41,476 bases of DNA, taken from contig QZKS01000023.1 of assembly GCA_003599865.1 (NCBI GenBank), positions 1 to 41,476 on the forward strand, in the 5' to 3' direction. The notes beneath the pieces are model-generated. The model saw nothing but the letters and a program-made list of their open reading frames with translations. It did not search any database and had not been told where the DNA came from. Both the position numbers and the translations under genes were made by a program. This document shows, one piece after another, positions 2,761 through 41,476 of the stretch; the stretch's first letter is position 1, and each line of letters begins with the position of its first letter. This DNA is from Desulfobacteraceae bacterium (GTDB taxonomy: Bacteria > Desulfobacterota > Desulfobacteria > Desulfobacterales > SURF-7).

Positions 2761-3345
2761 TCATTCCACCAGCATCTGGGCGATTGTTTTTTTGAATTTT
2801 TCCGTAATTCCGAGATGTTGTTTCATTTCATTTTCCAGATTCGCCATGGATGCATAAAACGGTGTCCGATCAAAAGGGATGTATGGTTTGCTGCCACATT
2901 GGATATCAAAGGCTTTACAACCAGGGCCATACGCGGTCTTTCTTCCCGGAGCATTCAATTCATGCGGGATTCCGTGCATTCTGCAAATCATGGGGCGGTG
3001 GTTGTAGATGACGCATAAACCGTCTTGATTCAGCGGGCACATCAATCGAACCCCCTTCCCCTGTTTCATTGCCTCGACGGATTTCCGGTGGACATCCCGC
3101 GCCCTTTTGTACAGGGATGTTGAAAGGTAGGGATCTGTTTTGCCGATTCCTTCCAGGACATAAAAATATTCCAAGTGGGTATGATGAAAAAAATGAGTCA
3201 GACAGCAATTTTCATCGCATCCGCTGCAGTGAAAATGGTAATGGTATGACGCCCTTTGATATGCCTGATCCATTTCCGAAAATACAGCCGCCAATCGATG
3301 AAAAAACGGGGTCAGAACCAAATGTTGTGTAGATGTTAGTTTCAT
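2761..3345 (-). CDS. YkgJ-type CxxxCC cysteine-cluster protein (first of two)
   Basis: A 194-residue protein of the same broad class as its downstream neighbour. It has a CSGCDENCC cluster at about residues 40-48, then CPLNQDGLCVIYNHRPMICR near the middle and a C-terminal GPGCKAFDIQCG. The spacing matches metal-binding YkgJ proteins. The two tandem copies are clearly different in sequence and length, so they are not a recent duplication. The ATG start lies 12 bases after the dGTPase stop, consistent with one transcript. Function is unknown; the presence of two paralogues suggests two distinct targets or partners. Confidence 0.8.
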   Translation of the reverse strand: MKLTSTQHLVLTPFFHRLAAVFSEMDQAYQRASYHYHFHCSGCDENCCLTHFFHHTHLEYFYVLEGIGKTDPYLSTSLYKRARDVHRKSVEAMKQGKGVRLMCPLNQDGLCVIYNHRPMICRMHGIPHELNAPGRKTAYGPGCKAFDIQCGSKPYIPFDRTPFYASMANLENEMKQHLGITEKFKKTIAQMLVE

Positions 3346-3357
3346 ACGGTTTTACAA

Positions 3358-4416
3358 CTAAACCAAAGGGGATGGGAGAAAAAGTTTTTCATACAGATTC
3401 ATCGCATAGCGGTCGGTCATGCTTGCAATAAAATCGCAGACAACTCTGTCCATGGGCTGCCCTTTTGAAATTTCAGCCATTTCCATGTTGATCAACTGGG
3501 TGGTAAACTGGTCTTCATTTTCCATGAAGTATGAATACAACTCTGAAAGTATTTTTTTTGCCTTTAAAAATTCCTTGTGGACCTGCGGGGACCGGTAAAC
3601 ATTATCGTATAAAAACTGTCTCAGCTGTAGCATGGCTGTGAGGATTTCATCACTCATCTGCAAGGTGATCTCACCGTCTTTTCCTCTGCTGGAAAATACG
3701 ATATCCCGGATCATGGTTGTTGCCCGTTCGGAATGGGTATTTCCCAGGATATTGTTGCACGATTGCGGGATCTGTTCCCTCTTGATGACACCGCTCCGGA
3801 CCGCATCGTCAAGGTCATGATTCAGATAGGCCATGATGTCGGAAATACGGACAACACGGCCTTCTATTGTGGCCGGCATATCTTTTGGATCTTGAGGGAT
3901 AATATCGCCAAAACCTTTTGAGTGTTTCAGTATCCCGTCCCGCACTTCACAGGTCAGATTGAGCCCCTTCCCTTTATTTTCCAGATAATCCACAACCCGT
4001 AAGCTTTGGTCGTTGTGAGAAAAAGCAGGGGAATAGATTTCTTTCAGAGCGATTTCACCGCCATGTCCAAAGGGCGTATGTCCGAGATCATGTCCCAGAG
4101 CGATCGCTTCCGCCAGATCCTCATTCAGCCTCATGGCTCTTGAAATGGTCCTGGCAATTTCAGAAACTTCCAGTGTATGGGTCAGGCGGGTGCGATAGTG
4201 ATCCCCGAGAGGGGAAAGGAAAACCTGGGTTTTGTGTTTTAATCTGCGAAACGCATTGGAATAGACGATTCGATCTCTGTCCCTTTGAAAGGCGGTCCGT
4301 ATCGGGCAAGGGTCTTCAGCAATTAATCGTCCACGGGATTTGGAGCTTTTGCATCCTGCAACAGCAAGAAAGCTTTCTTCGCGTTTTTCAAAATCGGCCC
4401 GAATCGACATGGTCAT
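3358..4416 (-). CDS. dgt: Deoxyguanosinetriphosphate triphosphohydrolase-like protein (HD domain)
   Basis: An HD-superfamily dNTP triphosphohydrolase: dNTP (typically dGTP) to deoxynucleoside plus triphosphate, influencing nucleotide pools. The 352 residues match the shorter dGTPase-like (type 2) family. Metal-ligand motifs are visible: H80 in RLTHTLEVSEIAR, H109-D110 in LGHDLGHTPFGHGGE, and a later ISDIMAYLNHDLDD supplying the last Asp. An N-terminal NAFRRLKHKTQVF block is also diagnostic. Two Met codons lie close together (residues 1 and 3); the second may be the true start. It begins a minus-strand operon with two cysteine-cluster proteins. Substrate preference cannot be read from sequence. 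Confidence 0.9.
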   Translation of the reverse strand: MTMSIRADFEKREESFLAVAGCKSSKSRGRLIAEDPCPIRTAFQRDRDRIVYSNAFRRLKHKTQVFLSPLGDHYRTRLTHTLEVSEIARTISRAMRLNEDLAEAIALGHDLGHTPFGHGGEIALKEIYSPAFSHNDQSLRVVDYLENKGKGLNLTCEVRDGILKHSKGFGDIIPQDPKDMPATIEGRVVRISDIMAYLNHDLDDAVRSGVIKREQIPQSCNNILGNTHSERATTMIRDIVFSSRGKDGEITLQMSDEILTAMLQLRQFLYDNVYRSPQVHKEFLKAKKILSELYSYFMENEDQFTTQLINMEMAEISKGQPMDRVVCDFIASMTDRYAMNLYEKLFLPSPLV

Positions 4417-4503
4417 GCTTATATAAAGAGTTCAAACTAAATTAAAAAATGTCATCATCAAACAGTCAACAGAAGATTTCTATTACTCACAGCATGAAAT
4501 AAT

Positions 4504-4540
4504 TGTAAAGAAATATTTGTGACTTTACATCTATTATAAT
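4504..4540 (+). promoter_or_regulatory. Inverted repeat and candidate -10 element in the divergent dgt / HsdR_N intergenic region
   Basis: TGTAAAG (4504-4510) and CTTTACA (4523-4529) form perfect 7-bp arms 12 bases apart. TATAAT follows at 4535-4540. The dyad would cover the -35 region of a promoter reading rightward, a classic operator position. No good -35 hexamer is seen at 16-18 bp. The intergenic region (4417-4625) otherwise contains only AT-rich sequence. Confidence 0.35.
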
Positions 4541-4625
4541 ATTCTCTACATAATTACAATGCGTGTCCATGAATGGATTGCGGAGGTGCTTTGTCTTCAA
4601 ACCATTATAATCCGGGTGCAAAGAA

Positions 4626-28478: not shown

Positions 28479-29024
28479 TTGAACGACCTGCTTTCCGGAA
28501 TTATCTCATCTAAGACGAGAATCAAGCTTCTGGTGCGTCTTTTTATCAATCCCATGGCCACATCCTACCTGCGTGAACTTTCAAAAGAATTCAATATATC
28601 AACCAATTCGGTTCGGGAAGAGTTGAACCAGCTGACCAAAACAAATCTACTGAAATCCCAGAAAAATGGGAGACAGGTTTATTATATGGCTAACCAGGAA
28701 CATCCTTTGTTTCCTGAGTTGCGGTCGATGATAAACAAGGTGGTTGGTTTGGATCAGGTCATTGACGGAATCGTCAACCGCCTTGGGGATCTGGAAGGGG
28801 CATATCTTCTGGATGATTATGCGGAAGGTAAGGATAGCGGAATTATTGATCTTTTATTGATTGGAAATATTGATCAATATCACCTGAATGATTTGAGCAG
28901 AAAAACAGAACGATATATAAAACGGAAGATTCGTCCGTTGGTATTTAGTAAAGAAGAATACCAAGAGCTGCTACCCACGTTGGAGAAAAGAGCACGCTTG
29001 TTGATTTGGGAAGCTAAAAAATAA
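28479..29024 (+). CDS. Winged-helix regulator with degenerate nucleotidyltransferase-like domain
   Basis: 181 residues. An N-terminal ArsR/MarR-like winged helix (about 1-75: YLRELSKEFNISTNSVREELNQL, read in parts) is followed by a region resembling MNT-type nucleotidyltransferases (about 85-170). The usual GS..G...SDIDLL signature is eroded to EGKDSGIIDLLLIG, lacking the GS and one acidic ligand, so catalysis is unlikely. The start is TTG 28481-centred (28479-28481), six bases after AAAGGAG. Proteins of this type often precede exopolysaccharide loci in deltaproteobacteria. Probably controls the downstream glycan cluster and itself; both are inferences. Confidence 0.75.
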   Translation: MNDLLSGIISSKTRIKLLVRLFINPMATSYLRELSKEFNISTNSVREELNQLTKTNLLKSQKNGRQVYYMANQEHPLFPELRSMINKVVGLDQVIDGIVNRLGDLEGAYLLDDYAEGKDSGIIDLLLIGNIDQYHLNDLSRKTERYIKRKIRPLVFSKEEYQELLPTLEKRARLLIWEAKK

Positions 29025-29142
29025 CCTGATTTTCAGACTAATTTGGAATTGTTTGGTATACAATATTATTGTAATTTTTTATGGTTACGCTTGATTGTCT
29101 ATGTAACCTAAAGGGCGAAGCTGGGTTTTGAAACTATGTTGT

Positions 29143-29653
29143 GCGGCCTTTGAAAAACCAGCCAGATTGCCGGTTTCACAATTTACAGAAATTTTTTAAA
29201 TGACAACTGATCATTGATCTGGTTTTCCGGTTCCGGATCAGATTTGATCCGGAACTATTTCTGGAGCAGCAGACATTGAAAAAGCAATAGCGGCGGATAT
29301 GCATCCGCGCCTTCACTGGAAGTACCAACCGTATAATAACTATGAAGAATATCCTCAATTCTTTTCCAGTTGATGGCCCTATCGAGTTTTTCCATTGTTT
29401 TGAGGCTGCGGTTATGCTTCAAGGAGTTTTTAAGAGGGAGGTCGGCGAATCCTAAGTTTCGTTCTATTTTTTTGAATGCCATGAATTCCTCCAGATGATT
29501 GATTTTATGAGGAAAGCATGTCACAAATTAAATATAATTACAACTAATTTTACATAATTATATGATTTTTTTTGAAGATATTTTTTTTACCAGTGAGAAC
29601 CCGGTGTATGTTGAACCAGAATTTCGATTTTTTATGGGTTATGCAAAGGTCTC
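29143..29653 (-). mobile_element. Internally deleted IS5-like insertion sequence
   Basis: This lies in the 688-base gap (29025-29712). The ends are imperfect inverted repeats: positions 29143-29160 match the complement of 29636-29653 at 13 of 18 bases, sharing CCTTTG and AACC. Between them lies the 5' third of a transposase gene on the minus strand, with everything after it deleted up to the left end. At 511 bp it is a non-autonomous, MITE-sized derivative. A target duplication could not be fixed. The rest of the gap (29025-29142, 29675-29712) shows only AT-rich sequence. Confidence 0.65.
29183..29482 (-). pseudogene. IS5-family transposase N-terminal fragment with an amber mutation
   Basis: It starts MAFKKIERNLGFADLPL behind a strong GGAGG (ATG at 29480-29482). 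The reading NHS/HNRSLKTMEKLDRAINW...YPPLLLFQCLLLQK is a typical IS5 transposase N-terminus. Codon 76 is TAG (29255-29257) where relatives have TGG (W). The frame then continues FRIKSDPEPENQINDQLSFKKFL, read in parts, to a TAA at 29183. Both the nonsense codon and loss of the catalytic DDE region make it inactive. Confidence 0.8.
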
Positions 29654-29674
29654 AAACTAGTTATAACTCGTTTG
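29653..29674 (+). promoter_or_regulatory. 22-bp near-perfect palindrome upstream of aepX
   Basis: Ten of eleven base pairs match about a centre between 29663 and 29664; the outer arms are CAAAC/GTTTG and the core is AGTTATAACT. It directly abuts the outer end of the IS-like element and lies 39 bases before the aepX ATG, with possible -10 elements TATATT (29675) and TGTAAT (29681). A repressor-binding site is a reasonable guess. Confidence 0.45.
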
Positions 29675-29712
29675 TATATTTGTAATCGACCGTGCGGAGC
29701 TGCTTTTAAAAA

Positions 29713-31020
29713 ATGAAAAAAAACAAAACAGTATATGTCGGCATGAGTGCGGATTTAATACATCCCGGTCACTTGAATATTATTAAAAAGGCAAGGGAAC
29801 TGGGGGATGTCATCATCGGGCTGTTGACTGACGAAGCGATTGCCAGCTATAAGCGCATGCCGCACATGACATTTGATCAACGGCGGGAAGTAATTGAAAA
29901 TATCAAGGGAGTAAGCCAGGTGGTACCCCAGAAAACCCTTGACTATGTATTTAATCTGGAAAAAATCAAACCGGATTATGTACTCCACGGTGATGACTGG
30001 AAAGAAGGCGTCCAGCAAAAAACAAGGCAGCGGGTGATTGATACTCTGGCCCAATGGGGGGGAACGCTGATCGAAATCCCTTACACCAAAGGCATTTCTT
30101 CCACCCGGTTGCACGCCGCAATGAAAGAGGTGGGAACCACCCCGGAAGTACGCTTGAAATCACTTCGCCGGATGCTGCGGGTAAAGCCGTTGATACGGAT
30201 TATTGATATTCATAACGGGCTGTCCGGCCTCATCGTTGAAAATACCTGTATCGATACACCCGAAGGGCGGCGCGAATTCGACGGCATGTGGGGCAGCAGC
30301 CTGGCGGATGCTACGGCCAAGGGAAAACCCGATATCGAGGCGGTTGATGTCACCGCGCGTATTACCACCCTGAACGAAGTGCTTGAGGTCACCACAAAGC
30401 CGATTGTCTATGACGGAGATACCGGCGGCAGACCGGAACATTTTGTATTCACGGTTAAAACGCTGGAGCGCCTGGGCATCTCAGCGATCATCATTGAGGA
30501 TAAAGTCGGGTTGAAGAAAAATTCGCTGTTGGGTACGGATGCCGGGCAGATACAGGACAGCATTGAAAACTTCTGCCATAAAATACAAATCGGGAAAAGA
30601 GCCCAGGCAACCGATGATTTCATGATCATTGCCCGCATCGAGAGCCTGATTCTGGAACAGGGTATGGATGATGCCATAACCAGGGCAAAAGCATATATTG
30701 AGGCAGGCGCGGATGGCATCATGATCCACAGCCGGCAAAAAAATCCGGATGAAATTTTTGAATTCTGCCGGTTGTACAATCAGTTCACGGACCGCCGCCC
30801 CCTGGTGGTCGTACCCACTAGCTACAACCAGGTGACCGAAGACGAGCTGGCCGATAACGGCGTGAATATCGTCATATATGCCAATCATCTCCTGCGCAGT
30901 GCCTATCCGTCCATGCTCGAAACCGCCAGGGCCATTCTCACACATCGGTGCTCGGCTGAATGCGATGCCCGTATGCTACCGATCAAGGCGATCCTTGGCT
31001 TAATTCCGGGGGGAAAATAA
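29713..31020 (+). CDS. aepX: Phosphoenolpyruvate mutase fused to an N-terminal cytidylyltransferase domain
   Basis: A bifunctional 435-residue protein. Residues 1-135 form a nucleotidyltransferase of the glycerol-3-phosphate cytidylyltransferase type, with HPGH at 17-20 and ISSTRL at 128-133, both CTP-binding motifs. Residues about 150-435 are PEP mutase, which rearranges PEP to phosphonopyruvate, the first step of nearly all phosphonate synthesis. The hallmark [10 protein letters not shown] (262-271; E-D-K-five residues-S) is intact. It starts the phosphonate gene group, and its TAA overlaps the aepY ATG. The fused domain probably makes a CMP-phosphonate; in PntC-type enzymes this is known for 2-aminoethylphosphonate. 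Unusually GC-rich compared with the genes downstream. Confidence 0.95.
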
Positions 31021-32147
31021 TGATAGATCCAGGGCAACTGTTCAACGGTTTGCGGCAACACGGCATTGAGCTTTTTACCGGAGTGCCGGACTCACTTCTG
31101 AAGCATTTCTGTGCATATCTTGAGGATCACTGTGCCATCAATCAGCATGTTATTACAGCCAACGAAGGCAATGCCGTGGCCCTTGCCGCAGGATATCACC
31201 TGTCCACCGGAAGGGTAGCCGCCGTTTACATGCAGAACTCGGGACTGGGAAACGCGGTTAACCCGCTCATATCTCTTACTGCTCCCGAAGTTTATAATAT
31301 CCCATTGCTCCTGATCATCGGCTGGCGCGGGGAACCGGGTGTAAAAGACGAGCCCCAGCACATCAGGCAGGGCAGGATCACACCTGGTCAACTGGAACTT
31401 ATGGAAATCCCGTATTCAGTGCTGGATGCAGATTCCGACAGCCATCAGGTGCTGGACAGCATATTCGATAGGATTAAAAATACAAATGCGCCGGCTGCAC
31501 TGCTGGTTCGCAAAGGAACATTTACACCCTATAAAAGCATCCAAAAGCAAAATCTATTGTCCACACTCTCCCGTGAAGATGCCCTTACCCGGATTCTGAC
31601 ACTTGCCGGTGAAAACGCCCTGGTCATATCGACCACAGGTAAAACCTCACGCGAGGTTTTTGAAATCCGGGCCCGGCTCGGCCAGCCCCAGCGCGATTTT
31701 CTAACCGTAGGATCCATGGGGCATACGGCATCCATCGCCCTGGGTGTTGCACTGGGCAATCGGCAAAAACAAATTATCTGCATCGACGGTGACGGCTCCG
31801 CTCTGATGCACCTGGGATCACTGCCGGTGATCGGCAAGCTTAACCCTGAAAACCTTATCTACATACTGCTCAATAATGCCGCCCATGAATCTGTTGGCGG
31901 CCAGCCGACCGCAGCAGACCGGTTTGACTTTGCCGCCATGGCAAAAGCCTGCGACTTTAAATACCGTATGGCCGAAACCACCCGGCACCTGGAAGACTGC
32001 TGGTCCGATATCCGTCAGATACCCGGCCCGCACATGATTGAGGTGCGTATACGCACCGGTTCCCGCGATGATCTTGGCCGTCCATCCCGCACGCCTAAGG
32101 AAAACAAAAAAGCCTTCATGGAGGCGGCAATTGACCATTTGGTCTGA
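31020..32147 (+). CDS. aepY: Phosphonopyruvate decarboxylase
   Basis: A thiamine-diphosphate enzyme converting phosphonopyruvate to phosphonoacetaldehyde, the step that makes the unfavourable mutase reaction irreversible. 375 residues, with a catalytic Glu at 49 (ANEGNAVALAAG), the ThDP motif GDGS at 257-260 ending in NN at 285-286, and GWRGEPG and PQHIRQGRIT, typical of the family. The start is ATG 31020 (TAATG overlap with aepX), behind GGGGGG; an in-frame start at 30960 is rejected. Confidence 0.95.
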   Translation: MIDPGQLFNGLRQHGIELFTGVPDSLLKHFCAYLEDHCAINQHVITANEGNAVALAAGYHLSTGRVAAVYMQNSGLGNAVNPLISLTAPEVYNIPLLLIIGWRGEPGVKDEPQHIRQGRITPGQLELMEIPYSVLDADSDSHQVLDSIFDRIKNTNAPAALLVRKGTFTPYKSIQKQNLLSTLSREDALTRILTLAGENALVISTTGKTSREVFEIRARLGQPQRDFLTVGSMGHTASIALGVALGNRQKQIICIDGDGSALMHLGSLPVIGKLNPENLIYILLNNAAHESVGGQPTAADRFDFAAMAKACDFKYRMAETTRHLEDCWSDIRQIPGPHMIEVRIRTGSRDDLGRPSRTPKENKKAFMEAAIDHLV

Positions 32148-33249
32148 TTATAACCCGGTGCGCATCACTTCAGGCCCGGGTGCCATTGACCGGCTGTTTT
32201 TACTTGATCCACCGGTTATTACCGGTAACCGGATACTGATGGTCACCAGCGCAGGCTTTACTGCCCGGGGCGTGACAGAAAAAATCGAGGAAAAAGCAAG
32301 AAAAGCCGGCTTGGAAAACCCAATACGGGTCTTTGACGGGGTAACCGCCAACCCGGAACTCGATTTTCTGGACCGCATGACAATCACGTTGCGCAGGGAA
32401 GGCATCTCCGGCATCATTGCACTTGGTGGCGGCTCCGCGCTGGACACGGCAAAGATCTTCTCAGTGGCCCTGTCATCCGACCTGGAAATTCCCCTGGATA
32501 TGGTCTTAAGGCAAAAACAACCGCATGTCTGGAAAAATCACATACCAATAGTTGCCATACCCACCACAGCCGGTACAGGCGCGGAAGTCACTCCTTTTGC
32601 AACGGTATGGGACAGCAGAAACAAAAAAAAATACTCTGTTTCCGGGGAGCGGGTCTATCCAGACCACGCATTGCTCGATCCCGAACTGACATTGACGCTT
32701 CCCCCGAAGGAAACTCTCTATACCGGACTGGATGCCATTTCCCATGCACTCGAATCACTCTGGAACAAAAACCGCACGCCCGTGAGCGAAGCCCTGGCGT
32801 TGAAAGCCCTGACCCTGGCAAACAAAGCCCTTCCGGCCATCATAAACCAGCCGGACAGCCTTTATTACAGGGAGATGATGCAGCAGGCCGCTCTGATGGC
32901 AGGATTGGCCATCAGCCGTACCCGGACCGCCATCGCCCATGCCATATCCTACCCGGTGACCATGCGATTTGGTGTACCCCACGGCCTTGCATGCAGTTTT
33001 ACTTTGCCCGGACTTATAAAACACTATACCCACGCACTTGATCACGGTCCCATAAAAACGGTCATGCATGAAACTCTTAAAACCGTAGAAGAATTAAATT
33101 TAGAAAACGAAATGGCGACTTACATTGGAGAAGAAAATTTGTCAGAGTATATTGAAGAAATGTTTCATCCCGATCGTATCGGCAATTATTCAGGTATACT
33201 AACAGATGATGATATCTCCCGGTTGGTTTTGTTTAAAACTGAAAAATAA
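32131..33249 (+). CDS. Iron-type alcohol dehydrogenase, probable phosphonoacetaldehyde reductase
   Basis: A group III (Fe-dependent) alcohol dehydrogenase, about 372 residues. NAD-binding GGGSALDTAK, then TTAGTGAEVTPFA and metal-site residues in GLDAISHALE and AHAISYPV...GVPHG. Next to aepX and aepY it should reduce phosphonoacetaldehyde to 2-hydroxyethylphosphonate, as PhpC and FomC do; aminotransferase PhnW is absent here. The start is probably TTG 32131, six bases after GGAGG and 17 bases inside aepY. The last ~60 codons (after ~33060) turn sharply AT-rich, unlike the rest of the gene. Confidence 0.88.
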   Translation: MTIWSDYNPVRITSGPGAIDRLFLLDPPVITGNRILMVTSAGFTARGVTEKIEEKARKAGLENPIRVFDGVTANPELDFLDRMTITLRREGISGIIALGGGSALDTAKIFSVALSSDLEIPLDMVLRQKQPHVWKNHIPIVAIPTTAGTGAEVTPFATVWDSRNKKKYSVSGERVYPDHALLDPELTLTLPPKETLYTGLDAISHALESLWNKNRTPVSEALALKALTLANKALPAIINQPDSLYYREMMQQAALMAGLAISRTRTAIAHAISYPVTMRFGVPHGLACSFTLPGLIKHYTHALDHGPIKTVMHETLKTVEELNLENEMATYIGEENLSEYIEEMFHPDRIGNYSGILTDDDISRLVLFKTEK

Positions 33250-33356: not shown

Positions 33357-34295
33357 ATGATTAGTGAATTTGCAATTATCAGTGAAGATGCTGTCATTGG
33401 AAAAAATGTCAGGATTCATCCTCATGCAATTATTAATGCAGGGGTGTGTCTTCATGATGATGTGGAGATATTTTCCGGTGCAATTATTGGTCAATCTCGA
33501 ATCCATAAAAAAGTTCCTCAGGAGCTATCATTCTCAGAAAATCGAGTTGTCATCGGCCCCAATACCGTCATCGGACCATATTCCATCGTTTATGCTAATG
33601 TCAAAATCGGAGCAGATACCATTATTGATGGCAATTGCGAGATAGGCTATCCGACACCTTTGGCAGACGGACATCCTTTAATTATTGGACAAGGCACTTT
33701 AATCCGATCACATTCAGTTTTTTATGCCGGTTCCTGTTTTGGGACTCGTCTGGTGACCGGGCATCGTGCAACCGTCCGGGAAAAAACAATTGCTGGTGAG
33801 AACCTGCAGATCGGAACTTTATGTGATATTCAGGGGGACTGTGAAATAGGGGACTATGTTCGTTTTCATTCTAATGTGCATGTCGGGAAAAAATCGCGGA
33901 TAGGAAATTTTGTCTGGTTGTTTCCCTATGTTGTGCTGACCAATGATCCTACGCCGCCAAGCGAAACTTTGATGGGCGCAGTTATTGAGGATTATGCAGT
34001 TGTTGCGACCATGTCCGTGATTCTTCCGGGCGTTACCGTTGGAAGCCATTCGCTGGTTGGTGCTCACGCCCTAGTGACAAAGAACGTACCCAGGGGAATG
34101 ATCGTGGGCGGGGTGCCGGCAAGGGTGTTCGGTGAAGCATCATCCATGAAACTCAAAGATGGTTCCGGTCAATCGGCTTACCCCTGGACCGGGCATTTTC
34201 ATCGGGGATATCCAGAAAATATCACTAAAGAATGGAATAAAATGTCCTATCCTGAAGATTTTGAAAATTCGGAGGGAGGATATAATGGCCCATGA
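33357..34295 (+). CDS. Left-handed beta-helix (hexapeptide) acyltransferase
   Basis: 312 residues made largely of hexapeptide repeats (I-G-x-x-x-x), for example NTVIGPYSIVYANVKIG and IGTLCDIQGDCEIG. The C-terminal half has the sugar N-acyltransferase pattern GAVIEDYAVVATMSVILPGV and VPRGMIVGGVPARVFG, and the catalytic histidine is probably in RFHSNVHVG. It likely acetylates an amino-sugar nucleotide or a glycan; it could complete an Fdt-type 3-acetamido sugar. ATG 33357; followed by an acyltransferase remnant in another frame. Confidence 0.85.
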   Translation: MISEFAIISEDAVIGKNVRIHPHAIINAGVCLHDDVEIFSGAIIGQSRIHKKVPQELSFSENRVVIGPNTVIGPYSIVYANVKIGADTIIDGNCEIGYPTPLADGHPLIIGQGTLIRSHSVFYAGSCFGTRLVTGHRATVREKTIAGENLQIGTLCDIQGDCEIGDYVRFHSNVHVGKKSRIGNFVWLFPYVVLTNDPTPPSETLMGAVIEDYAVVATMSVILPGVTVGSHSLVGAHALVTKNVPRGMIVGGVPARVFGEASSMKLKDGSGQSAYPWTGHFHRGYPENITKEWNKMSYPEDFENSEGGYNGP

Positions 34296-34496: not shown

Positions 34497-34913
34497 ATGA
34501 TTTCTGTATACGATGCAAGCCTAATCCAGTTCCCCCAAATCCTTGATATTAGAGGCAACCTAACTTTTATCGAACAGGAACGCCATATCCCCTTCAAAAT
34601 TGCCAGAGTTTACTGGATCTATGATGTTCCAGGTGGCGAGCAACGAGGTGAGCATGCTTTTCGTGACCAGGAAGAAGTCATTATTGCCCTATCGGGCAGT
34701 TTTGACGTGTTTTTGGATGATGGTAATGCCCAAAAAATAGTTCACCTGAACCGGGCCTATCACGGCCTTTACGTTCCTCGGATGATCTGGCGGCGAATGC
34801 AGAATTTTTCCACCAATGCTGTAGCTTATGTGCTGGCAAATTATCCATTCACTACAGGAGATTATATCCGTGATTACAGAGAGTACAAAGCACTGATGCA
34901 AGAGGGAAAATGA
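34497..34913 (+). CDS. FdtA/WxcM-like sugar 3,4-ketoisomerase, copy 1 (variant active site)
   Basis: A 138-residue cupin of the FdtA/QdtA family, which isomerises dTDP-4-keto-6-deoxyglucose to the 3-keto sugar. Family blocks are DIRGNLTFIE, RVYWIYDVPGGEQRG, VFLDDGN and GLYVPRMIWRRMQNFS. The catalytic HxH pair of relatives is HAF here: H53 is kept but position 55 is Phe. Activity may be lost or altered. Its TGA overlaps the ATG of copy 2, so they are co-translated and may form a heterodimer. Confidence 0.85.
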   Translation: MISVYDASLIQFPQILDIRGNLTFIEQERHIPFKIARVYWIYDVPGGEQRGEHAFRDQEEVIIALSGSFDVFLDDGNAQKIVHLNRAYHGLYVPRMIWRRMQNFSTNAVAYVLANYPFTTGDYIRDYREYKALMQEGK

Positions 34914-35323
34914 CTATCACTATTCATGACTGTAAGCTAATTGAACTTCCACGCAAGTATGATCGCAGAGGATCTTTGACCCCCATCAGTAACCATCAGG
35001 AAATCCCATTTGATATTATCAGAACCTATTATCTGTATGATGTTCCAGGTGGTGAATCAAGGGGTGGACATGCCCACAGAGAACTTCAGCAATTAATGGT
35101 TTCAGTCATGGGAGCCTTTGATGTAATTCTTGATGATGGGCAGGAAAAAAAGATTGTACGGCTGGACCGTGCATACTTTGGATTATATATCCCTAAACTG
35201 ATTTGGCGGGAGTTGGTTAATTTTTCTTCAGGGGCCAATTGCCTGGTCCTGGCCTCGATGCCGTATGATGAAATGGAATATATCCGGTCGTATGATGAAT
35301 TTCAGATGCTTAAACGCGATTAA
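34910..35323 (+). CDS. fdtA: FdtA-like sugar 3,4-ketoisomerase, copy 2
   Basis: 137 residues, same family as copy 1 but with intact HAH (H54, H56) in PGGESRGGHAHREL, so this is the likely active isomerase. Makes dTDP-3-keto-6-deoxyhexose for the FdtB-type aminotransferase at 36657, en route to a 3-amino-3,6-dideoxyhexose such as Fuc3N or Qui3N. Which epimer is formed cannot be read. The ATGA overlap ties it to copy 1. The final residues (YIRSYDEFQMLKRD) match FdtA. Confidence 0.88.
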   Translation: MTITIHDCKLIELPRKYDRRGSLTPISNHQEIPFDIIRTYYLYDVPGGESRGGHAHRELQQLMVSVMGAFDVILDDGQEKKIVRLDRAYFGLYIPKLIWRELVNFSSGANCLVLASMPYDEMEYIRSYDEFQMLKRD

Positions 35324-35403: not shown

Positions 35404-36660
35404 ATGACGAAACGCCGCATTTTATTTGAGTTAATACAATCAATTCAAATAAAAATTAAAAAAATTTCATTTTGGCTGTTTCGTAAATGGAATATACCAA
35501 TATCTATAGTGCGAACGCTAATAAACCCTTTCGGGTTTTCTATTTTACCCATTTGCTCATTTGAAAAATCCACTGATATTGTTCTATTAGAAAAAAGATG
35601 CAAATCATTTTCTTGCACTCCAAAAGAAGAAAATTCAAATAACAAAAAATTAGAGACTTTTTTCCCGGATATTTATGCGAGAAAATTTTCTTTTGCTACT
35701 ATAATTAGTTGTTATCAGTTTGCGATTAAATATAAAAACCAAATTCATATTCCTCAATATTATTTTGAAAATATCCCTCGTATAAGTTGCGGAGGGAATG
35801 GATTTTCAATATCAAGAAAGGGTTTCGGCATAATTAGAGAGAAATCGCCAATAAAAATAACTCATGGAATTGGTTTGATTGGATTAGGTTCTTCTAATTG
35901 GTATCATTGGTTGATAGAAATATTACCAGTTGTAATGTTAGCTGAAAAATTACCATTAGCATATAGGAATTATGCTTTTTTAGTACCGAATGAGTACAAT
36001 AAATATCAAACATTTCGTGATTCTCTTGATGCTTTAAAATCACATAGAAAAATAATAATATTGGGAAGCGATAAACAATATCAAGTCGAAAATTTTATAG
36101 CTATAGATATTCCAGTACATGGTCCATTCAATCTTATGAAAGGTAAGTGGCCAAGAATTTCAGATTACAGGCAAAATGAAAATGTTCTTATCGATTACCG
36201 TTTAAGAATTTTGAAAAATTATGGGATTGAAAATTTTAAACCAATTAAAAAAATTTTCCTGTCGAGAAAGAATAATCGCCGAAATTTTAATCAGATAGAT
36301 TTGGAAAGGATCGTAAAAGAAAATGGTTTTACCATTGTTTATCCTGAAATATTGTCTTTTTATGAACAAGTACGTTTGTTTAATTCCGCAAAATATATAG
36401 TTGGTGCATCAGGAGCAGCATGGGCTAACATCATTTTTTGTCAAAAAAACACATTTGGTTTAACCTGGATTTTTCCTGAATATAAGGAGTTCTGTGTTTA
36501 TTCCAATCTGGCTGCGATTGCAGGTATGAATCTTAGTTATTTTTTTACATCTACAGTCAAACCACTAAAAAGCACTGGTGAAGCCTATAGTATAGATTAT
36601 CTGGTGGATCAACAGGTTTTTATTAAAAAATTAAAATTATTTTTGGAAAACTCTGAATGA
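35404..36660 (+). CDS. Family 61 glycosyltransferase
   Basis: 418 residues with the GT61/DUF563 motif [13 protein letters not shown] at 164-176 and [13 protein letters not shown] near 335. GT61 includes O-GlcNAc and xylosyl transferases in plants; bacterial members are in polysaccharide loci with unknown acceptors. Strongly AT-rich and different in codon use from neighbours, pointing to acquisition. No membrane helix or signal peptide apparent. The stop overlaps the next ATG (ATGA). Confidence 0.8.
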
Positions 36661-37790
36661 ACATACCATTTCTGGACCTAAAAGCAGTCAATGCGCAATA
36701 TAGAGATGAGCTTATTAAGGCAGCGACTCGTGTCATCGATTCTGGCTGGTATATTCAGGGTCAGGAAGTCAAGGCATTTGAACAGGAGTTTGCTGATTAT
36801 TGCGGCACATGCTTCTGTGTGGGAGTGGGTAATGGTTTGGATGCTTTGATCCTTACCTTGCGGGCCTGGAAAGAATTAAAAAAACTAAAGGACGGCGATG
36901 AGGTCATGGTCCCGGCCAATACATATATTGCAACAATCCTTGCTATTACGGAAAATCGCCTGATTCCGCTGCTGGTAGAGCCGGATCCCAGGACTTATAA
37001 TCTTTCCCCGGCGAGGATGAAACAGGCAATAACGTCCAAAACCAGAGCTGTGATACCAGTGCACCTGTACGGGCGGCTTGCGGATATGCCAGATATTCGC
37101 GAGATCGCCCTCCGCCATGACCTGCTAGTTTTAGAAGATGCTGCTCAAGCTCATGGAGCAAGTCTGAACGGCCGGAAAGCTGGCAACTGGGGCCATGCCG
37201 CCGGGTTCAGCTTTTACCCGGGGAAAAATATAGGAGCACTTGGTGATGCTGGCGCGATAACCACCAGCGATGAAGAATTGGCACAAACTATCCGGGCATT
37301 GGGTAATTATGGTAGCCTTAAAAAGTATAAAAACCTGTATAAAGGATTGAACAGTCGCATTGATGAGATTCAAGCAGCGTTTCTTCGAATCAAACTGAAA
37401 TATCTGGACAAAGAGATCGAGGCAAGGCGTAATGTGGCCCGGACATACTTGGAAAATATATCTAACTCTCTTATAATACTTCCTAAATGGGAAAAAGAAG
37501 AGCAACATGTTTTCCATCTATTTGTCGTTCGTTGTACTATGCGAGATTCACTGCAGGCATATCTGCATCGACAGGGAGTGAAGACTTTAATTCATTACCC
37601 AGTTCCTCCACATTTACAGAAAGCTTATAGTGACTTACAGGATCTCAAATTGCCGTTAACAAAAAAGATACACAAAGAAGTTTTGAGTTTACCGATTAGT
37701 CCGTTAATCCAACAAAAGGAAGTTAATCAAATTACGGGTTTTTTGAATGAATTCTGCAAAATGGAAAAAAGATGGATTAAAAAGGTTTGA
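36657..37790 (+). CDS. fdtB: DegT/DnrJ/EryC1-type PLP sugar aminotransferase, FdtB-like
   Basis: 377 residues. PLP Lys is K190 in [26 protein letters not shown] and EDAAQAHGA provide other PLP contacts. With FdtA next door it should aminate dTDP-3-keto-6-deoxyhexose at C3. Overlaps the GT61 gene by four bases. More GC-balanced than the GT61 and sulfotransferase around it. Confidence 0.9.
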
Positions 37791-37839: not shown

Positions 37840-38814
37840 ATGAATTCCTTGATTTTTATTGGAGGCGTTCCTAGATCAGGCACTTCTTTGGTTCAAAGAA
37901 TTTTAGATTTGCATAGTCAAATTTATGCGGGACCTGAATTCGACCATCTATTAAGTATTTGTAGTACCTATTTAAAAATGAAGGAAGGGATAGATAATGG
38001 ACGACAAGTTTTTTATTACAATGAAACAGATTTAAAAAAGTCGTTTTCAGAATTGATCAGTAGTTTTCTTGTTAAAAAAGCAAGTAAAGAAGGGGTACTG
38101 TATTTATCTGAAAAGACACCTTCCAATGTTTTAATTTTCAACGAACTAAAAGAATTATTTCCTAATGCAAAATTTGTATTTATTATCCGTGACCCTAGAG
38201 ATAGTATTTGCTCTTTTAAAGAAGTAGCAGAACGAGCCGATAGGTTTGGTGAGGAAGTTACAATCGGTCATGACTTGTTAATGGATTTAAAATTGATTGA
38301 TCAATATATTAAGTTTGGAAATAATTTTTATTTAAAAAATGAAAAGTCTTGCCATTTAGTGCAATATGAATCCTTAGTCACCTTTCCGTTAGAAACAATA
38401 CAAAGCCTTTGTAAATTTTTAGGAGTACTATTCGAATCTGGATTATTAGAATTGAATTCAAAAGAAAGTGATCTCTGTAAATTAATCAATGCTGAAAATC
38501 AAACTGTTAGGGCTTGGTTTGAAAAAGGAATGATAGCGGAAGGTATCAACAATGGTAGTGTAGAAAAATGGAAACAAAAATTAAAAAAAGAAGAAATAAT
38601 TTTAATAGAAAATTTTTTTTCGAGAAGAAACTATACTTGCTTCAAATCATATGCGTTTAAAAAACCAGGGATTATTGAAAAGCTCTTAATACTAAACTTT
38701 TATATAAAGTTTGGAATAGTTAATAAGTTAAAAAAAATTGGGAAAAAGAATATTACGAACCCATCTCAAAGAAACATTATGACTGAACAATCACCTACTG
38801 ACAATAATTGTTGA
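37840..38814 (+). CDS. PAPS-dependent sulfotransferase family protein
   Basis: 324 residues. 5'-phosphosulfate loop GGVPRSGTSLVQR at 8-20 and 3'-phosphate motif RDPRDS at 117-122 are both intact. Transfers sulfate from PAPS to a sugar or other acceptor; in a glycan locus a sugar hydroxyl is likely. The AT-rich composition suggests recent acquisition. The C-terminus ends MTEQSPTDNNC; the flippase frame continues in the same phase after its TGA. Confidence 0.85.
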   Translation: MNSLIFIGGVPRSGTSLVQRILDLHSQIYAGPEFDHLLSICSTYLKMKEGIDNGRQVFYYNETDLKKSFSELISSFLVKKASKEGVLYLSEKTPSNVLIFNELKELFPNAKFVFIIRDPRDSICSFKEVAERADRFGEEVTIGHDLLMDLKLIDQYIKFGNNFYLKNEKSCHLVQYESLVTFPLETIQSLCKFLGVLFESGLLELNSKESDLCKLINAENQTVRAWFEKGMIAEGINNGSVEKWKQKLKKEEIILIENFFSRRNYTCFKSYAFKKPGIIEKLLILNFYIKFGIVNKLKKIGKKNITNPSQRNIMTEQSPTDNNC

Positions 38815-38829
38815 AAATATCAGGTTCAT

Positions 38830-40296
38830 ATTATCGCATCCGCAAAAGATAAATCGCTAAAAACTAAAGCATTCGCTGGTCTGGTCTGGTCTGCTATTGA
38901 AAAAATTTCAACGCAAGGTGGACAATTCGTTATCAGTATTTTTTTGGCACGTCTTCTTATGCCTGAGGATTATGGAATGATTGGGATGCTTTCTATTTTC
39001 ATAGCTATCTCTCAAAGTCTTATTGACAGTGGGATGGGGACAGGCCTGATACAAAAAAAAAATAGAACAGATATTGATTTCTCAACAGTCTTCGTGTTTA
39101 ATTTTTTTGTAAGTATTGCCATCTATTTTCTATTATTTGTTAGCGCTCCTTTTATTGCTGATTTTTATAATATGCCAAAACTTGTAATTCTGACTAGAAT
39201 TTTAACTCTGAATATTATAGTCAATTCTTTTGCAATCATTCAAAGAACAAGACTTGTAATCAGTATCGATTTTAAAAATATTGCAAAAATTAATGTTGTA
39301 TCATTCTTTTGCGGAGGTTGTTTGGGCATTGTTTCCGCCTATAACGGTTTTGGTGTTTGGGCTTTGGTTATTATGACTCTTTCAAAAACAATAATCACTG
39401 TCGTAATGCTTTGGTTTTTAAACAGGTGGTCTCCTTCCTTTCAGTTTTCAAAACAATCTTTTAAAGAAATATTTGGTTTTGGCTCCAAACTTCTTATTGC
39501 TGGACTTTATGCCCAAATTTTCAACAATGCCTATAATATAGTTATCGGTAAGGTATACTCTGCCTCACAACTTGGATTTTACGCTAAAACAAAGTCGATT
39601 GCAGAAACAGCAGCTGGGACAATCACCGGTGTATTTTATCAGGTTACATATCCAATACTTACTTCTTTGAAAGATGATCAACAGCGTTTGTTATTTGTGT
39701 TTCGCAGGTTTGTTCGAATGTCTGCTTTTTTGGTCTTTCCAATGATGACGATACTTTCGTTGATCGCGGAACCTCTTATTACTTTAATTTTAACAGAAAA
39801 ATGGATACCGGTGGTTCCTTTGCTCCAATGGATGTATTTCGCACGAATTTTTTATCCTCTGAGTTCAATTAATATGAACATCCTAAACGCTATAGGTCGA
39901 TCTGACCTTTTTTTGAAGCTTGATTTATCCAAAGCACCATTGATTATCCTGGCTTTGGTGATAACAATTCCTTTAGGGGTGAAAGCTATGGTTATCGGGC
40001 ATGTGGTAACTTCATTTTTAGCATTTTTAATGAATTCCTATTTATCTGGGAGGTTGTTTGGATACGGACCATTGCAGCAATTTCGAGATATTTTAAAAAT
40101 CATTTTAGCAACGATAGGAATGGCTTTTACTGTTTTCGTGTGTAGCAATGGTATCGAGTCGGATGTTTTAAAGCTGTTTTATGGAATTGTTTCAGGAACA
40201 GCATCTTATTTGCTTTTTGCTTTTTTTTTGCGGATTCCTGAGCTTGATGAAGTTAAACAAACAGCCATTAAAATTTATAATCGATGCTTTTGCTGA
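38830..40296 (+). CDS. Polysaccharide flippase (Wzx/RfbX, MATE-like)
   Basis: A membrane protein exporting lipid-linked oligosaccharide units. The N-terminal KSLKTKAFAGLVWSAIEK and ARLLMPEDYGMIGML are typical Wzx, with about 12 hydrophobic segments over the ~488 residues. Homology requires translation from well before 38944 (TTG), but from 38815 onward no ATG, GTG or TTG is in frame. ATT at 38830 (six bases after AGG) is the best candidate. It follows the sulfotransferase TGA in the same frame. Confidence 0.85.
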   Translation: MIASAKDKSLKTKAFAGLVWSAIEKISTQGGQFVISIFLARLLMPEDYGMIGMLSIFIAISQSLIDSGMGTGLIQKKNRTDIDFSTVFVFNFFVSIAIYFLLFVSAPFIADFYNMPKLVILTRILTLNIIVNSFAIIQRTRLVISIDFKNIAKINVVSFFCGGCLGIVSAYNGFGVWALVIMTLSKTIITVVMLWFLNRWSPSFQFSKQSFKEIFGFGSKLLIAGLYAQIFNNAYNIVIGKVYSASQLGFYAKTKSIAETAAGTITGVFYQVTYPILTSLKDDQQRLLFVFRRFVRMSAFLVFPMMTILSLIAEPLITLILTEKWIPVVPLLQWMYFARIFYPLSSINMNILNAIGRSDLFLKLDLSKAPLIILALVITIPLGVKAMVIGHVVTSFLAFLMNSYLSGRLFGYGPLQQFRDILKIILATIGMAFTVFVCSNGIESDVLKLFYGIVSGTASYLLFAFFLRIPELDEVKQTAIKIYNRCFC

Positions 40297-40372: not shown

Positions 40373-41386
40373 ATGGATCATTACGCTAACCACATAAATA
40401 ATCCAATAGTTTCAATTTGCGTAATAACTTTTAATTCTTCAAAATTTGTTACAGAGACATTGAATAGCGCCTATAACCAAACCTATCAGAATATTGAACT
40501 AATAATTTCAGATGACTGTTCGATCGATAATACTTTGGAAATATGTAGAAAGTGGATAGATGAGAACGGCAGCAGATTTGTCCGTTGCGTCATACTTACA
40601 TCAATTAAAAATGAAGGAGTCACTATAAATTGCCGTAAATCAGTTGAAGTGAGTAACGGTGTTTTCTTAAAACATATTGCCGCTGATGACACACTGTGTC
40701 CGAATTGTATCAAAGATAATGTTAATTTTTGCATGACTCATCCATCTGCCCAGATAGTACATTCGGTTTCATATGTTTATAGAAATATAATTAATAAAGA
40801 GAATTTTTTGGAAATACGTAATGGGGCGCCGCATATTTTTCTATCGGATAAAATTCAAGCGAATGATCAATATAAGTACCTTTTGCGTCATTTCATCATA
40901 AGCACACCCACACTTTTTTTGAAAAAGGATTTGTATAATATTTATGATTACGATGTTGAAATTCGAGATATTGAAGACGTCCCCTTTGTTCTTAATTTAA
41001 CAAGGAATGGGATAAAGATATGGTTTATGAATATTCACACAGTAAACTATAGAATTCATGATGATTCAATATGCCATAATAAGCAACCCGGCAGGATATA
41101 TTCAAGATACTTTATAAAAAGGAGAGTCGTAAATAAAAAATACATACTTCCTTATATAAATCCTATCGAAAAGATATTCATGCATTTTGAATATTGCAGA
41201 ACGAAATTTATAACGAATCATAATTTAGATAGTAATACTTTATTAGTTCGGCTTTTTCTTTATCTTACAAGACTTCCTTTTAGAATGTTTGTATTTTATG
41301 ACCGTCGTATTATGCATTGTTATATTTCGAGGAAATATAAGAAGCAAGGTCGCCTAAAGCTTACGAATATGAACATAAATACCTGA
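40373..41386 (+). CDS. Family 2 glycosyltransferase
   Basis: 337 residues. GT2 pattern VSICVITFNSSKFV, NQTYQNIELIISDDCSIDNT and HIAADDTLCPN (acidic motif) cover residues 10-110; the remaining part is helical and basic. It would add a sugar to the growing repeat unit on the cytoplasmic face. Probably one transcript with the flippase, 76 bases upstream. AT-rich like the other late genes. Confidence 0.85.
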   Translation: MDHYANHINNPIVSICVITFNSSKFVTETLNSAYNQTYQNIELIISDDCSIDNTLEICRKWIDENGSRFVRCVILTSIKNEGVTINCRKSVEVSNGVFLKHIAADDTLCPNCIKDNVNFCMTHPSAQIVHSVSYVYRNIINKENFLEIRNGAPHIFLSDKIQANDQYKYLLRHFIISTPTLFLKKDLYNIYDYDVEIRDIEDVPFVLNLTRNGIKIWFMNIHTVNYRIHDDSICHNKQPGRIYSRYFIKRRVVNKKYILPYINPIEKIFMHFEYCRTKFITNHNLDSNTLLVRLFLYLTRLPFRMFVFYDRRIMHCYISRKYKKQGRLKLTNMNINT

Positions 41387-41474: not shown

Positions 41475-41476
41475 AG

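Follow-up and report, generated by a model that had tools for sequence, protein, structure and literature searches.

A Fom1-type cytidylyltransferase-phosphoenolpyruvate mutase cassette beside polysaccharide genes of a Desulfobacteraceae bacterium, with CMP-2-hydroxyethylphosphonate as its likely product

Results

The window analysed here is a stretch of 41,476 nucleotides from a Desulfobacteraceae bacterium (GenBank assembly GCA_003599865.1, contig QZKS01000023.1, positions 1 to 41,476), and the subject is a trio of adjoining genes in it. The first gene, aepX, encodes a cytidylyltransferase fused to a phosphoenolpyruvate (PEP) mutase, the second a thiamine diphosphate (ThDP)-dependent phosphonopyruvate decarboxylase, and the third an iron-type alcohol dehydrogenase (Fe-ADH); eight more genes follow before the contig ends (Table 1). 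The bacterium is a probable sulfate reducer, and its trio resembles the opening half of the pathway to fosfomycin. Our reading, to which we give a probability of about 0.8, is that the trio would turn PEP into the cytidine monophosphate (CMP) ester of 2-hydroxyethylphosphonate (HEP), whose HEP phosphonyl group would go to a surface polysaccharide encoded downstream.

An earlier note on this DNA had placed a cytidylyltransferase-PEP mutase fusion, a decarboxylase and an Fe-ADH at this locus, and the Pfam and NCBIfam models, the motifs and the open frames bear it out. In AepX, PF01467 covers residues 12-133 and PF13714 covers residues 155-409, and the protein scored 399.4 bits against the PEP mutase equivalog TIGR02320 (cut-off 319.55). 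The mutase signature and the N-terminal cytidylyltransferase signature described in that note are both present in the translation, as an intact EDKxxxxxNS and as HPGH and GISSTRL, and residues H17, H20, S129, S130, E262, D263, K264, N270 and S271 were invariant when 40 fused proteins were aligned. The decarboxylase scored 459.7 bits against TIGR03297 (cut-off 312.5). The Fe-ADH was above the cut-off for PF00465 and PF25137, and its residues D201, H270 and H284 were invariant in 17 rows. These scores exclude chance as the source of the three family assignments.

The whole aepX gene spans 29713-31020, and the reading frames of all three genes are open. The stop of aepX and the start of the decarboxylase gene overlap in TAATG at 31018-31022, and the decarboxylase and Fe-ADH genes overlap by 17 bp at 32131-32147. 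The Fe-ADH most likely starts at the TTG at 32131, six bases after a GGAGG at 32120-32124, and not at the mechanically chosen TTG at 32038. The three overlapping genes probably form a translationally coupled cassette. The gene that precedes aepX encodes a small winged-helix-like regulator (28479-29024), and a gap of 688 bp (29025-29712) separates the two. A promoter scan gave 15 promoter-like sites against 7.4 (standard deviation 2.4) in shuffles, but was not used further, as only 5 of the 15 were in this gap and only one of these was on the + strand.

The best sequence match of AepX in the PDB was 5x3d (phmmer E 1.4e-63), an entry titled as the Fom1 cytidylyltransferase domain with HEP-CMP bound, and 93 of 136 aligned residues of the two domains were identical. 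Structure prediction of AepX had been proposed as a check in the earlier note. The AlphaFold2 model (mean pLDDT 85.9) was superposed on 5x3d by Foldseek with a root-mean-square deviation of 1.0 Å over 126 columns and a TM score of 0.96 by target length. Because the AepX cytidylyltransferase matches that of Fom1, which was solved with its product CMP-HEP, the predicted product of the cassette is likely CMP-HEP.

No transaminase for 2-aminoethylphosphonate (AEP) of the TIGR03301, PhnW or AepZ type was found above cut-off in the genome (97.11% complete), the best match being 45.9 bits against 360.8. The suggestion that the group lacks a transaminase holds for this type; an aminotransferase of the sugar type (DegT, PF01041) is encoded at 36657-37790.

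Relatives of AepX were encoded in 518 stretches of one genome collection (tblastn E <= 1e-3; not all need be fused), and the best 80 of the 518 were kept. Neighbour counts were redone on all open reading frames (ORFs), because some of the PEP mutases and dehydrogenases had been missed by a greedy gene model. Among these 80, the names of the relatives span many bacterial phyla and include two archaeal records (L047 and L049). Among the 78 loci placed by the gene model, 73 had the decarboxylase at +1 and 66 had the dehydrogenase at +2. When all ORFs were counted, aepX had a dehydrogenase gene no more than 10 kb away in 67 of the 80 loci; for the 48 loci longer than 20 kb the count was 46. None of the 80 held a class V, AEP-type aminotransferase. 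The relatives include Desulfobotulus, Desulfamplus and Desulfuromusa, which are anaerobic Gram-negatives.

The surveyed loci also showed other arrangements. Seven of them (L023, L044, L066, L104, L214, L215 and L217) have the fused gene without an adjoining decarboxylase or dehydrogenase, most with HEP-type sites, and in L070 (= L212) these two genes lie about 8 to 9 kb from the fused gene. Genes for AMP-binding, LuxE-like and LuxC-like proteins stand directly upstream of the cassette in L013 (6277-9984) and L021 (7681-8733), each cluster being found in 5 of the 80 loci. L218 (7287-11000) has two cytidylyltransferase-PEP mutase fusions near tandem, with a single decarboxylase after the second.

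For an even sample by phylum, PEP mutases were drawn from three sets of genomes: 395 from the window's phylum, 395 from that of L027 and 398 from that of L004. This gave 49 neighbourhoods: all 14 places outside the window that scored above 260 bits in the first, all 10 in the second, and 25 of 28 places in the third, where the three left out were further copies in genomes already sampled. The EDK motif was found by pattern in 41 of the 49. A fused cytidylyltransferase occurred in 14 of these 41, nine with a dehydrogenase (two of them the survey centres L162 and L167), four with an aminotransferase and one, L137, with neither. The other 27 comprised 14 with an aminotransferase, 2 with a dehydrogenase (L172 and L173, both having a stand-alone cytidylyltransferase gene alongside) and 11 with neither, some of them at contig ends. 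With the centres and the window left out, a cytidylyltransferase of this kind accompanied 9 of 9 dehydrogenase clusters (7 fused, 2 stand-alone) versus 4 of 18 aminotransferase clusters (Fisher p 1.5e-4, a rough value since genomes within one phylum are related). The eight loci without the EDK motif were dropped, L149 and L150 with an aminotransferase among them. In L137, a radical SAM-SPASM protein is fused to a PF01467 cytidylyltransferase (2979-4574), and the PEP mutase beside it has a cytidylyltransferase domain of its own that has lost the GISSTRL-type motif.

Five aminotransferase clusters (L155, L157, L158, L159 and L210), all from the phylum of L027, match the window in the fusion and in the arrangement of the first two genes, but their third gene encodes a class V aminotransferase. 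Their cytidylyltransferases, four from the even sample plus L210, formed one clade (support 0.955). Nine residues (S12, A13, P18, T39, I43, A44, S45, K47 and D94) reached 90% conservation or more across 83 dehydrogenase-linked rows, at least 5 of which are one locus reached twice (L024/L103, L027/L162, L004/L167, L040/L213 and L041/L216), and were absent from these five. The window and Fom1 both have the dehydrogenase type at all nine. Several of the sites adjoin the HxGH motif or lie in HGDDW, and the residues may contact the substrate. Mixed residues at these sites were seen in a few loci without either third gene, such as L211 and L219.

Candidate transferases were sought with a LicD profile built from ORFs with the core motif (13 loci) and a PF04464 profile built from 19 proteins, 18 of them matching the family. 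With the cleaned profiles (E <= 1e-5), a LicD-like or PF04464-like gene was found in 40 of the 48 long loci, and also in 40 of 48 within about 8 kb; among 14 control loci of the aminotransferase type there were 2 (p 4e-6). Some of the matches are weak or lie within large multidomain proteins. A Pfam check of the best matches in the 48 long loci confirmed 19 of 19 for LicD and 22 of 23 for PF04464, and at least 39 loci stand. Of the 62 loci long enough to show the gene right after the dehydrogenase, 28 have one of this kind there. In the even sample, such a gene was seen in 0 of 5 fused aminotransferase-type loci and 0 of 11 others. Among four neighbourhoods from kin genomes, a PF04464 gene adjoins the dehydrogenase in L105 and a LicD-like profile match is present in L106; L103 and L104 have neither. 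LicD and PF04464 enzymes use donors activated with cytidine diphosphate (CDP), and the two families therefore suit CMP-HEP. It is likely that a LicD-like or PF04464-like enzyme moves HEP to a glycan in the relatives.

Single-linkage cluster 3 (35 loci) could not serve as the LicD count, as it also holds family 2 glycosyltransferases and its profile matched that of the window. From clusters 3 and 17, with 47 proteins in all, 22 were picked, and these comprised 14 LicD, 7 family 2 glycosyltransferases and 1 PF04464. CDP-alcohol phosphotransferases (PF01066) were considered as the missing transferase and rejected; the genome has four, none on the cassette contig, the family is present in 14 of 14 control genomes, and there was no reason to prefer one.

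The two 1500-base windows that cover most of the trio had the highest G+C of the 27 (0.525 and 0.543; the rest ranged from 0.313 to 0.488). The closest proteins among the best 80 of 518 came from Silanimonas (79%), Marinospirillum (78%) and a Victivallaceae bin (78%), and the nearest relatives are mostly gammaproteobacterial. Among kin genomes, the full-length gene was found in 5 of 59, the own genome included, with one further fragment at a contig edge, and in 0 of 3 genomes of the same genus. On a simple reading of these data, the trio looks to have been acquired horizontally, as a unit.

Table 1. Positions of the cassette features and of the genes that follow them in the window
Feature	Position	Strand	Basis
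AepX N-terminal cytidylyltransferase domain (Fom1 type; HPGH, GISSTRL)	29713..30138	+	PF01467, 5x3d phmmer E 1.4e-63
AepX C-terminal PEP mutase domain (EDKxxxxxNS)	30163..31011	+	TIGR02320
Phosphonopyruvate decarboxylase (ThDP; Fom2/AepY type)	31020..32147	+	TIGR03297, PF02776, PF02775
Fe-ADH with the predicted FomC/PhpC role of phosphonoacetaldehyde reductase	32131..33249	+	PF00465, PF25137, TIGR03405 below cut-off
Hexapeptide-repeat acyltransferase (context)	33357..34295	+	PF00132
FdtA-like sugar ketoisomerase (context)	34497..34913	+	PF05523
Second FdtA-like sugar ketoisomerase (context)	34910..35323	+	PF05523
Glycosyltransferase family 61 (context)	35404..36660	+	PF04577
DegT/DnrJ sugar aminotransferase (context; not AEP transaminase type)	36657..37790	+	PF01041
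Sulfotransferase (context)	37840..38814	+	PF13469
Wzx-type polysaccharide flippase (context)	38944..40296	+	PF13440; NF058658 below cut-off
Family 2 glycosyltransferase, last gene before contig end (context)	40373..41386	+	NF047683 below cut-off

The adjacent FdtA-like pair (34497-35323), with the hexapeptide acyltransferase and the DegT aminotransferase nearby, suggests a 3-acylamino-3-deoxy sugar in the same polysaccharide.

Discussion

The proposed pathway runs as follows. The mutase domain of AepX would convert PEP to phosphonopyruvate and the ThDP decarboxylase would convert this to phosphonoacetaldehyde, two steps predicted from strong homology. The Fe-ADH would then reduce the aldehyde to HEP, as its family and context suggest. 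The N-terminal domain of AepX would join HEP and cytidine triphosphate into CMP-HEP; strong homology argues for a cytidylyltransferase, and family and context point to HEP as its substrate. By analogy with the relatives, CMP-HEP may finally donate its HEP phosphonyl group to the surface polysaccharide of the downstream genes. The activation of HEP as a CMP ester, which the earlier note had foreseen, is well supported by homology to the HEP-CMP-bound domain, and in the sample drawn evenly by phylum the dehydrogenase branch goes together with cytidylyltransferases of this family.

Much of this interpretation was foreseen in the literature. According to the available text of Rice et al. 2019 (PMC6697681), Fom1 of the fosfomycin producer Streptomyces wedmorensis makes CMP-HEP and, like AepX, has its cytidylyltransferase before the PEP mutase. 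PF01467 is stated there to be fused to 23.6% of 1485 PEP mutases with the EDK motif, and CMP activation was proposed as a route to cell-surface transfer. The Pnt pathway described in that text likewise has a CMP-activated phosphonate beside a PEP mutase and a proposed surface transfer, but PntC belongs to PF12804 and prefers AEP, whereas the present cassette has a PF01467 domain and a dehydrogenase, without an AEP transaminase. The available parts of PMC9381506 and PMC8931226 describe HEP on a marine polysaccharide and the dehydrogenase step. In open-licence PMC papers searched for the cassette in Desulfobacter-named groups, with LicD, HEP exopolysaccharide and CMP-HEP, PMC6697681 was the sole one recognised on CMP activation.

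The claim that such a fused activation is little studied in anaerobic Gram-negatives was overstated, given the Fom1 precedent, the frequency of PF01467 fusions in the available text of PMC6697681, and the desulfo-named genera above. The cassette is a good fresh example of a known and widespread kind, not a new system. What is added here is the split of the dehydrogenase and aminotransferase branches by cytidylyltransferase, together with the linked transferases; neither was found stated in the available parts of the three papers.

Several points weigh against our reading. The best NCBIfam model for the Fe-ADH, TIGR03405, scored 340.2 bits, below its cut-off of 423.7 (next model 175.1). The 80 loci, being the nearest relatives, are no random sample. 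In the even sample a LicD-like or PF04464-like gene was present in no more than 5 of 9 fused loci of the dehydrogenase type, with the centres counted, and in 0 of 2 loci with a stand-alone cytidylyltransferase. A weak dehydrogenase match without such a cytidylyltransferase was seen in L188, one of the loci dropped for lack of the EDK motif. The nine sites may mark ancestry only, because the aminotransferase-linked domains are one clade of five, and the stand-alone dehydrogenase-linked domains of L172 and L173 lack the pattern. LicD (PF04991) and PF04464 had 0 matches in the 97.11% complete genome, and our own profiles found none in the window. The earlier note had placed the phosphonate on a glycan made by the adjacent genes; the polysaccharide genes are indeed downstream, but as the genome has neither family and the contig stops among them at 41476, attachment of HEP to a glycan is unproven here and its placement is only inferred.

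The lack of both known glycan transferase families would also suit CMP-HEP as an intermediate of a small secreted phosphonate and not as a glycan donor, a reading that we consider improbable. The closest solved relative is Fom1, which has the same residues at the nine sites and, by the available text of PMC6697681, uses CMP-HEP in this way in Streptomyces. The neighbours here are polysaccharide genes, in contrast to the antibiotic pathway of Fom1, and the long loci of the relatives mostly hold a LicD-like or PF04464-like gene. Fom1 acts in the antibiotic pathway together with Fom3 and Fom4. Domain scans of the eight genes after the trio, up to the contig end at 41476, found no radical SAM family, as in Fom3, and no cupin, as in Fom4, except the two FdtA-like genes, the rest of the genome not having been searched for Fom3 and Fom4; FdtA has a cupin-type fold.

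It is similarly improbable that the cassette was recently acquired and is inactive, or that the end product is not made for want of a transferase. The G+C peak, the mostly gammaproteobacterial nearest relatives, the absence of the full gene from the three same-genus genomes and the missing transferase would all fit such a history, but the three frames are open, and neither the catalytic motifs nor the gene overlaps have been lost. That the product is CMP-AEP, with AEP from a transaminase encoded elsewhere and another role for the dehydrogenase, is the least probable of all: in five loci a class V aminotransferase does accompany the fused PF01467 domain, but the domains of these five stand apart as a clade and have other residues than the window at all nine sites, the genome has no PhnW or AepZ above cut-off, and the dehydrogenase holds its +2 place in most modelled relatives.

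A wider proposal, which we hold only tentatively and consider rather doubtful as a whole, is that the Fom1-type cytidylyltransferase/decarboxylase/dehydrogenase cassette is a mobile, phylum-spanning module for the decoration of surface glycans with HEP, distinct from the AEP (PntC) module; that nine residues near conserved motifs predict the use of HEP or AEP; and that in the present lineage it acts with a CMP-HEP:glycan transferase outside LicD and PF04464. If such a cassette predicts HEP glycans in different phyla, probable sulfate reducers included, it would help to name the producers, and the nine-site signature would offer a direct mutational handle on the activation of HEP versus AEP.

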